DNA of 64,000 nt from Porphyromonas sp. (GTDB taxonomy: Bacteria > Bacteroidota > Bacteroidia > Bacteroidales > Porphyromonadaceae). The stretch covers positions 1-64,000 of the forward strand of contig NZ_JAUMXC010000005.1 of NCBI RefSeq assembly GCF_030529325.1, in the 5' to 3' direction. The translations under genes were made by a program, and so were the position numbers. The notes below the pieces were generated by a model. The model searched no databases and was not told the DNA's origin. It was given only the letters and a program-made list of their open reading frames with translations. Shown here one piece after another: positions 53 through 54,867 of this stretch (position 1 is its first letter; every line of letters begins with the position of its first letter).

Positions 53-189
53 TAGGAAATAAAAAAACGAGCCACAAAATTCCGAATTAACTTCACGAAC
101 CAAGCAAATGAAGACTCGAGATCCCAGCAAAAGGAAATTGAATACCTTAAAATATGAATACCGGATCAACACCTCAATGACAGTACAGA

Positions 190-274
190 GAAAAATATAG
201 TAGCCTCAAATTTAATTTGGCTAACTTAACAAATCGATGTGGCAACCTGCAGCATGAAGTTAGACGACTTTTTC
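190..274 (-). repeat. Dispersed three-arm element, copy 0 (decayed)
   Basis: Most diverged of six related intergenic copies. Read on the minus strand it begins GAAAAAGTCGTCTAACTT and ends CTATATTTTTC, with a decayed first internal arm (TGCAGGTTGCC) and a better second arm (TTAAGTTAGCC). It aligns over its whole length with the copy at 19773-19861 with one small gap. It lies beyond the lpdA terminator, in the same sense as lpdA. Confidence 0.75.
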
Positions 275-396
275 ATTCTCTTCAAAGACTCAATGCAGCA
301 ATAAGTTCTATCAACCGCTATAGGAAAAAGAACATCTTACGACACCACACTAAGACATAATCTATATGACTAAAAAAACAGATATACTAAAATAAA

Positions 397-3974: not shown

Positions 3975-4060
3975 AAAAAAGTTGTCTAACTTGACGCGTT
4001 AAGTTAGACTGATTGATTCATCAAGTTAGACACATTAATTTGGAAGGTTCTATACCTCTC
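3975..4060 (+). repeat. Dispersed three-arm element, copy 1
   Basis: Forward arm GTCTAACTTGA (3984-3994), first reverse arm TTAAGTTAGAC (3999-4009, one mismatch) and second reverse arm TCAAGTTAGAC (4021-4031, perfect). The 3' part, ATTAATTTGGAAGGTTCTAT then ACC, matches the other copies. It lies just beyond the kdsD terminator, in the same sense as kdsD. Confidence 0.85.
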
Positions 4061-12580: not shown

Positions 12581-12756
12581 TCTTATTCCCCCTGAATGTA
12601 TCGAAAGAAAAGTTCTCCAGGTCGATAAAATAAGGTAAACGCATTGACTCATCGAAATAGACATATAGATTTTGAGGGGAGCTGACCTTTTACCCAAAAG
12701 TACTCAGTATTCTGGTGATCTCCCCATATGTCGGAAGTATCTCCTCTTCTCAAAAT

Positions 12757-19772: not shown

Positions 19773-19861
19773 GAAAAAGGTATAGAAGGGTCAAAATTCA
19801 TGTGTCTAACTTGATGAATGAAGTTGTCTAACCTAATGCATCAAGTTAGACAACTTTTTTC
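19773..19861 (-). repeat. Dispersed three-arm element, copy 2 (89 bp)
   Basis: One of the best-preserved copies. Minus-strand reading: GAAAAAAGTTGTCTAACTTG at the start, first reverse arm TTAGGTTAGAC, second reverse arm TCAAGTTAGAC, and end CTATACCTTTTTC. The ends form an imperfect inverted repeat (GAAAAAAG / CCTTTTTC). It is the only copy between two divergent genes. Confidence 0.88.
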
Positions 19862-32796: not shown

Positions 32797-32884
32797 GAAA
32801 AAGGTTGTCTAACTTGAGGTATCAAGGTAAGCAACTTAATTCATCAAGTTAGACACATTGATTTGAACGCTTCTACAGCTTTTC
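32797..32884 (+). repeat. Dispersed three-arm element, copy 3 (88 bp)
   Basis: Begins GAAAAAGGTTGTCTAACTTG, first reverse arm diverged (TCAAGGTAAGC), second arm perfect (TCAAGTTAGAC), end TTCTACAGCTTTTC. No independent terminator is visible between the nitroreductase stop (32775) and this copy, so here the element may itself end transcription. Confidence 0.85.
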
Positions 32885-33098: not shown

Positions 33099-33171
33099 GG
33101 TGGTTGTAGCTCAGTGGTAGAGCACCGGATTGTGGTTCCGGGTGTCGCGGGTTCGAACCCCGTCTTCCACC
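33099..33171 (+). tRNA. tRNA-His (GTG)
   Basis: Cloverleaf with the extra G-1 opposite C73 typical of tRNA-His, D-arm GCTC-AGTGGTA-GAGC, anticodon arm CCGGA-TTGTGGT-TCCGG (anticodon GTG) and T-arm GCGGG-TTCGAAC-CCCGT. The acceptor strands GTGGTTG and CTTCCAC leave two adjacent U-U oppositions at 5:68 and 6:67, which is unusual. CCA is not encoded. Confidence 0.93.
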
Positions 33172-39506: not shown

Positions 39507-39546
39507 AAGGTCTGTGTCAACTTAGGATGACACAGACCTTTTTTTT
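39507..39546 (+). terminator. Terminator of the M16 peptidase
   Basis: Perfect 13-bp stem AAGGTCTGTGTCA / TGACACAGACCTT followed by six T. Textbook intrinsic terminator. Confidence 0.93.
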
Positions 39547-39650
39547 ATTTCACCATAGTCTACGCTATGACTGCAAAAACAAACCTCATGCCCGAGAGAG
39601 ATAGAATAATCTATCCCTTCAAACCCTGCCTCAAATAGGGTTATTGATGA

Positions 39651-39736
39651 AAAGGTAAAGAAGGTGACAAATCAAGGTGTCTAACTTGATGAATGAAGGA
39701 GTCTAACTTGATCTCTCAAGTTAGACAACCTTTTAA
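39651..39736 (-). repeat. Dispersed three-arm element, copy 4 (86 bp)
   Basis: Minus-strand reading: forward arm GTCTAACTTGA, first reverse arm TCAAGTTAGAC and second reverse arm TCAAGTTAGAC, all perfect; this is the only copy in which both alternative hairpins are flawless. Ends are TTAAAAGG and ACCTTTTC. It lies 105 bases beyond a strong terminator, antisense to the upstream gene. Confidence 0.88.
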
Positions 39737-53478: not shown

Positions 53479-53562
53479 GAAAAAGTTGTCTAACCTGATA
53501 GATCAAGGTAGGCATCTTAATTCATCAAGGTAGCCACGTTAATTTCGAGAGTTCTACTCTCG
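53479..53562 (+). repeat. Dispersed three-arm element, copy 5
   Basis: Begins GAAAAAGTTGTCTAACCTGA. The reverse arms TCAAGGTAGGC and TCAAGGTAGCC differ from the consensus in the same way, as if changed together. The end TTCTACTCTCG is decayed. It lies 50 bases beyond the hut terminator, in the sense direction. Confidence 0.8.
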
Positions 53563-54372: not shown

Positions 54373-54444
54373 GGCCCATTCGTCTATCGGTTAGGACGCA
54401 AGATTTTCATTCTTGAAAGAGGGGTTCGATTCCCCTATGGGCTA
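54373..54444 (+). tRNA. tRNA-Glu (TTC), copy 1
   Basis: 72 bases. Acceptor GGCCCAT / ATGGGCT (first pair G-U), anticodon arm CAAGA-TTTTCAT-TCTTG with anticodon TTC, T-arm GGGG-TTCGATT-CCCC. CCA is not encoded. Identical to copy 2 at 54796-54867. Confidence 0.95.
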
Positions 54445-54795: not shown

Positions 54796-54867
54796 GGCCC
54801 ATTCGTCTATCGGTTAGGACGCAAGATTTTCATTCTTGAAAGAGGGGTTCGATTCCCCTATGGGCTA
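54796..54867 (+). tRNA. tRNA-Glu (TTC), copy 2
   Basis: Identical to copy 1 across all 72 bases; identity extends only a few bases on either side. Followed by an intrinsic terminator. Confidence 0.95.

Follow-up and report, generated by a model that had tools for sequence, protein, structure and literature searches.

The described element nearest in kind to the repeat analysed here is BrickBuilt, a MITE of P. gingivalis that is present in 19 copies of 84-991 nt and consists of a 23-nt tandem unit with IS5-like ends (PMC4596501). Both repeats occur in the same family, are intergenic, carry a short tandem unit between distinct ends and vary in the number of units, and the described BrickBuilt example likewise follows a terminator belonging to the upstream gene (PMC4596501). 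The present element differs in its length of ~85 bp, in its roughly 200 copies and in the presence of an inverted arm. The two are not identical: the 23-nt BrickBuilt unit, AGAYCATARTATCCTCTCRTRTG, had no match at up to 3 mismatches in the source genome or in its sister species, and it had 218 and 29 matches in two other genomes of the same family (G020 and G022, respectively), neither of which matches the model of the element.

REP/BIME sequences and REPINs resemble the element in that they consist of short palindromic units in a mosaic of direct and inverted order and occupy intergenic regions in more than 100 copies. They differ from it in the 22-bp unit periodicity and the 3.5-kb exclusion reported below; no description of an exclusion distance for REPs was found in the literature searched. 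CGTC-tagged REPs, palindromes of 20-40 bp with a CGTC tag that are known from Bacteroidetes among other phyla (PMC3733652), are likewise palindromic repeats without a dedicated transposase, and by their description differ from the ~85-bp element as shorter, tagged palindromes.

A further parallel is offered by the ends of Tn7 and Mu. Tn7 ends carry 22-bp TnsB sites (PMC11406308), and Mu in vivo makes no insertions within 1.5 kb, with a boundary of cis-immunity near 5 kb (PMC7350765). The element shares with these ends repeated 22-bp units, both direct and inverted, and a disfavouring of another copy within a few kb. However, it is non-coding, and the genomes that carry it lack a Mu-transpos_C protein; exclusion near an existing copy, as in Mu and Tn7, is seen here for positions and not for insertion events. 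The analogy is one of behaviour, not of membership.

Architecture and copy number of the repeat

The source genome is a draft of Porphyromonas sp. (2.18 Mb, 93 contigs, 94% complete), from which a stretch of 64 kb, hereafter the window, was taken for the initial analysis. In the window, we identified 12 matches to the 11-bp arm GTCTAACTTGA at no more than 1 mismatch, compared to 1.36 ± 1.23 expected, and no shuffled sequence reached 12. In copy 4, all three arms are perfect and lie at 39679-39689 (+), 39701-39711 (+) and 39716-39726 (-), so that the order on the plus strand is forward, forward, reverse, with arm starts at 0, +22 and +37. The original prediction described a single forward arm opposite two reverse ones, which is the same layout read on the minus strand.

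The whole of copy 4 spans about 39652..39735 (+), where it scores 88.8 bits with the covariance model. Its head segment (39652..39678, consensus AAGGTATAGAACCTTCGAAATCAATGT) is followed by arm A1 (39679..39689), an 11-bp spacer, the remainder of the 22-bp unit (39690..39700), arm A2, the 5' side of a compact hairpin (39701..39711), the 4-nt loop of that hairpin (39712..39715), the reverse arm R on the minus strand, which can pair with A2 in the compact hairpin or with A1 in an outer one (39716..39726), and the tail AACCTTTT(AA), which lengthens the compact stem and forms a T-run in most copies (39727..39736). Alignment of 65-66 copies shows an element of ~85 bp with sharp edges, information content being at background outside about -27..+56 relative to 39679 (65 aligned copies). 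The consensus reads AAGGTATAGAACCTTCGAAATCAATGT, then GTCTAACTTGA TGAATGAAGTT, then GTCTAACTTGA TGCG TCAAGTTAGAC AACCTTTTTT. A unit of 22 bp accordingly comprises an 11-bp arm and an 11-bp spacer and occurs in direct and inverted orientation, and since the head resembles a degenerate further unit, the element can be viewed as a mosaic of 22-bp units.

The covariance model recovers four other copies in the window: copy 1 (3975..4058, -), with a diverged element in the orthologous gap of the sister species, copy 2 (19777..19860, +), copy 3 (32798..32881, -) and copy 5 (53479..53562, -), which carries the alternative arm type GGCTACCTTGA/GCCTACCTTGA. Two degenerate copies were detected as well, one at the left of the window (187..284, +; 43 bits, E = 5e-5) and one at 12606..12689 (-), where the profile score is 37 against a control maximum near 2 and the covariance model match is weak (E = 0.24). 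No Rfam family scored above its gathering score for the element, and the only matches in the window were tRNA genes (33100-33171, 54373-54444 and 54796-54867), one of which lies ~220 bp from copy 3 and two of which lie ~1 kb to the right of copy 5.

In the source genome, 268 exact arms were found, compared to 3 for the reversed control pattern. We identified 129 loci in 1.18 Mb, or 54% of the genome, degenerate copies included, which corresponds to roughly 200-240 copies genome-wide. None of the 129 has its centre deeper than 60 bp within a called gene. Most copies have the architecture forward, 22, forward, 15, reverse. The first 817 kb contain 82 copies, 70 of them in forward-forward-reverse order; in 10 others the middle arm is inverted while both ends stay the same, and the remaining 2 are unclear. 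The two main arm types, GTCTAACTTGA and GCCTACCTTGA/GGCTACCTTGA, are mixed within copies. In one locus with a different layout (C9:25492 in the source genome; L095:5492-5568), four forward arms follow each other in direct order, spaced by exactly 22 bp. Elements show no strand bias relative to local GC skew (40/77). Searches for a phage, plasmid or viral origin returned no match. The element is best read as belonging to a dispersed intergenic repeat that is non-coding, specific to the lineage and of mobile-element type. Some contig ends coincide with copies: of the 34 that were checked, 7 are no more than 200 bp from one (e.g., those of C5, C54, C67, C75, C90 and C40), indicating that the repeat breaks the assembly in places.

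Alternative hairpins, arm similarity and transcription

The original prediction proposed two mutually exclusive hairpins, and as a statement about folding this is correct, the predicted stabilities of the compact and outer forms being similar. Predicted folding of copy 4 is significant on both strands (z = -3.8), with ensemble probabilities of 0.36 for the compact hairpin and 0.63 for the outer one; in perfect copies, the predicted values are 0.47 and 0.52, respectively. The alternative hairpins are therefore physically plausible, but they are not evidently conserved as a pair. It had also been claimed that in copies 1-4 the second arm is perfect whereas the first varies. In copies 1-3 of the window, the outer arms are indeed perfect and the middle arm varies, but the pattern does not extend to the family, in which 42 of 91 copies have a perfect outer pair and 39 a perfect compact pair. 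Likewise, the two reverse arms of copy 5, TCAAGGTAGGC and TCAAGGTAGCC, have one change in common as proposed, but differ at another base.

Comparison of the arms across the alignment shows 21 double-change cells in the compact helix vs. 7.5 ± 2.2 in shuffles, and 7 in the outer helix vs. 4.0 ± 1.7. However, similarity of arms within copies (permutation) is also pronounced between the two direct arms, which cannot pair with each other: in the source genome, z = -3.1 for the direct arms, -2.7 for the outer pair and -4.7 for the compact pair, and in the sister species -4.2, -3.9 and -4.5, respectively. Where A1 and A2 differ, R matches A2 in 56 cases, slightly above the permuted value (48.7 ± 3.5), and matches A1 in 52, slightly below it (56.2 ± 3.6). 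Because direct arms are as alike as pairing arms, the apparent covariation mostly reflects the resemblance of duplicated units. The covariation check across genomic copies that had been suggested thus leaves the outer helix with no excess over direct-arm similarity, and there is a small extra signal in the compact hairpin only.

These comparisons bear on the proposal that the element is an RNA switch, in which a transcript would choose between the compact and the outer hairpin and so control termination or read-through. Mutually exclusive hairpins of similar predicted energy, the T-run that follows the reverse arm in most copies and the covariation of the compact pair are all compatible with a switch. 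Nevertheless, we consider it very improbable: complementarity of the outer pair does not exceed the similarity between the non-pairing direct arms, the elements have no preferred orientation relative to genes, most genes have a terminator of their own ahead of the element whichever way it points, and several copies in the sister species have no inverted arm. Two alternative hairpins follow from the presence of three copies of one arm, and they probably do not constitute a conserved RNA switch. Of the other possibilities raised for the same arrangement, a protein-binding array or a transposition-related sequence fits better. More generally, covariation between arms in repeats made of duplicated units needs to be compared with direct-arm similarity before it is taken as evidence of RNA structure.

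The position of elements relative to genes argues in the same terms about a second role in transcription, namely that they are portable intrinsic terminators maintained by selection, with the compact hairpin and the T-run as the working part. A stem of ~14 bp, a 4-nt loop and a T-run in most copies would suit such a role. However, in codirectional gaps 31 elements are oriented against the neighbouring genes and 34 along them, and 25 of the 107 occupied gaps are divergent. Moreover, a terminator-like site of the gene's own precedes the element in 31/45 (along) and 27/45 (against) of the genes that read toward an element, compared to 74/206 with such a site within 160 nt of the stop in element-free gaps, in a simple scan in which segment lengths differ between element-bearing and element-free gaps. 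Copy 4 conforms to this picture: a strong hairpin with a T-run at about 39507-39547 lies directly behind a gene for an M16 peptidase, whose closest named relatives are from Porphyromonas, ~100 bp before the element. Elements mostly sit where genes no longer read, their placement is independent of orientation, and we regard the terminator role as improbable.

Spacing between copies

Copies of the element avoid each other. In the first 817 kb, the minimum distance between nearest neighbours was 3.5 kb, and the coefficient of variation (CV) was 0.56, compared to 0.83 ± 0.08 for random intergenic placement. The 3.5-kb threshold was taken from this first data set, and both the contigs added later and the sister species serve as independent checks; the null placement models rest on simple gene calls made for this analysis. 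In the later contigs (362 kb), the smallest distance between elements was 4.1 kb. Over all 129 loci in 1.18 Mb, no nearest-neighbour distance fell below 3.5 kb, compared to 26.9 ± 3.8 expected. For the sister species, 2 distances below 3.5 kb were observed vs. 5.8-7.6 expected, a weaker effect in the same direction. The overall CV was 0.53-0.56 in the source genome vs. 0.75-0.83 expected, and 0.63-0.69 in the sister species vs. about 0.97. When only long gaps in the source genome were considered, the CV test became weaker (p = 0.11 and 0.35), because this restriction thins the set of elements, whereas the test for close pairs held (p ≤ 0.0003).

No pairs occur up to 3.5 kb, and from that distance on their density is normal, with no preferred period. 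Correspondingly, of the 137 suitable gaps that lie less than 3.5 kb from an element, none is occupied (0/40, 0/50 and 0/47 in successive bins), compared to 19 of the 54 gaps at 3.5-4.5 kb (35%), which equals the base rate. For 24 pairs of neighbours, there is no gap between the two; given that adjacent gaps can both be filled when they are far enough apart, the rule concerns distance. An origin of the rule in assembly breaks is unlikely, since 7 of the 34 contig ends checked are at an element and both members of a close pair would have to coincide with a break for it to be missed. Spacing that never falls within 3.5 kb is unusual, and it points to one insertion preventing others in its vicinity; a limited literature search gave no published description of a distance rule for repeats of this type.

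The exclusion could also arise after insertion, if close repeats recombined harmfully and were lost. Repeats are prone to recombination, and expansion of units is seen in a tandem array of the sister species described below. Against such loss, the density rises in a step at 3.5 kb and is normal immediately beyond, and degenerate copies obey the rule too. Among neighbour pairs closer than 7 kb, 17 are direct and 19 inverted, and this equal frequency is evidence against an origin by deletion between direct repeats. Post-insertion loss thus appears unlikely to us.

Relatives of the repeat and its possible spread

Among 12 genomes of the genus, clear relatives of the element were found only in the sister species (median protein identity 82%; 1.2 of its 2.4 Mb covered), and the ten other congeners had no match to the element model. 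In the wider family, one further genome has weak matches, mostly of dissimilar sequence. The unit in the sister species is about GTTAGACTTGATGACGAAAGTC, with arm sequences that differ from those in the source genome, and several of the copies are plain direct arrays with 22-bp periodicity. At C1:812621-813109 of that genome, ~8 near-identical 22-bp units stand in tandem between AAAAAAAGTC and GACCTTTTT; the orthologous gap in the source genome does not contain the array.

Comparison of 101 conserved gaps shows an element in both species in 3, in the source genome only in 6, in the sister species only in 3 and in neither in 89. Sites are shared above the level expected under independence (Fisher p = 0.009), 3 of the 9 sites of the source genome in conserved gaps being common to both. 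At one site scored as absent from the sister species, a related degenerate sequence lies just outside the called gap, so that sharing is perhaps somewhat underestimated. Sites turn over between the two species, and some are old or re-used.

Repeats of a comparable style occur elsewhere. Another genome of the genus carries an unrelated dispersed repeat of ~280 bp, with six copies in its first 100 kb that are 10-24 kb apart (G003, loci L179-L183). It has two arms spaced by 22 bp (AACACGTTTAC) together with inverted ones (TTAACGTGTTTA), pointing to a recurrence of this architecture within the genus. In a different genome of the family (G034, loci L149, L151 and L153), a multi-arm intergenic element, AACTTCCCGAAC / GTTCGGGAA, has T-runs and is similar in style and different in sequence.

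The distribution of sites is relevant to a role in chromosome organisation, in which the units would be bound by a nucleoid or topology protein and kept ~10 kb apart by selection. Over-dispersed placement in two species, location beyond terminators in both orientations and the partial sharing of sites are consistent with such a role. We nonetheless judge it a minority possibility, because beyond 3.5 kb pairs are as dense as at random, without a preferred period, mean spacing differs about twofold between the sister species, and the ten congeners have no match.

No transposase able to mobilise the element was identified in the searches of the carriers for Y1/RAYT, Mu-transpos_C and rve. The Y1 tyrosine transposase/RAYT family (PF01797) had 0 matches in the source genome, as a 94%-complete draft, and in the sister species; it is present in four congeners that lack the repeat (G001, G005, G006 and G011). 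A RAYT-associated REP/REPIN was rejected on the same grounds, although the high-copy intergenic palindromic units do match. Mu-transpos_C (PF09299, TnsB/MuA-type) is absent from both carriers. Of two rve matches in the source genome, the one examined (C67:109342) belongs to an IS3-like orfA/orfB pair (L108:8530-9954) that lies ~100 bp from a copy of the repeat, which is probably a coincidence. A scan for half-elements in 54% of the source genome returned orphan half-hits, and no autonomous parent element sharing terminal inverted repeats was recognised in it. A search for target-site duplications, with inexact element boundaries, showed no fixed offset enriched above the level set by internal similarity.

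We consider it moderately probable that the element is a mobile repeat of 22-bp units that is bound by a protein, mobilised in trans and subject to distance-dependent exclusion at insertion. The 22-bp units would most likely be DNA binding sites for a protein, and that protein may also spread the element in trans. An existing copy would stop another from settling within ~3.5 kb, a behaviour like target immunity, and the exclusion would act at insertion and not through later selection; a step at a fixed distance makes exclusion at insertion the simplest account. Several observations weigh against this explanation, namely the absence of Y1/RAYT and Mu-transpos_C from the carriers and the IS3-like nature of the rve match examined, the search for target-site duplications, which found none at a fixed offset, the different range of exclusion in the sister species, where two pairs are closer than 3.5 kb, and the 3 of 9 conserved-gap sites common to both species, indicating that some sites are old or re-used. 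A more specific version, which we put forward tentatively, is that the ~85-bp element is non-autonomous and its 22-bp units are bound by a putative immune transposition system, yielding a self-avoiding array of ~200 copies, each of which closes ~3.5 kb on either side to further insertions. If so, it would represent target immunity in a miniature element.

Sequence is the usual basis for cataloguing high-copy bacterial repeats, and a sharp minimum distance between copies is a measurable rule that can separate immunity at the time of insertion from later selection. If exclusion does act at insertion, the repeat would record transposition immunity at ~200 natural chromosomal sites.
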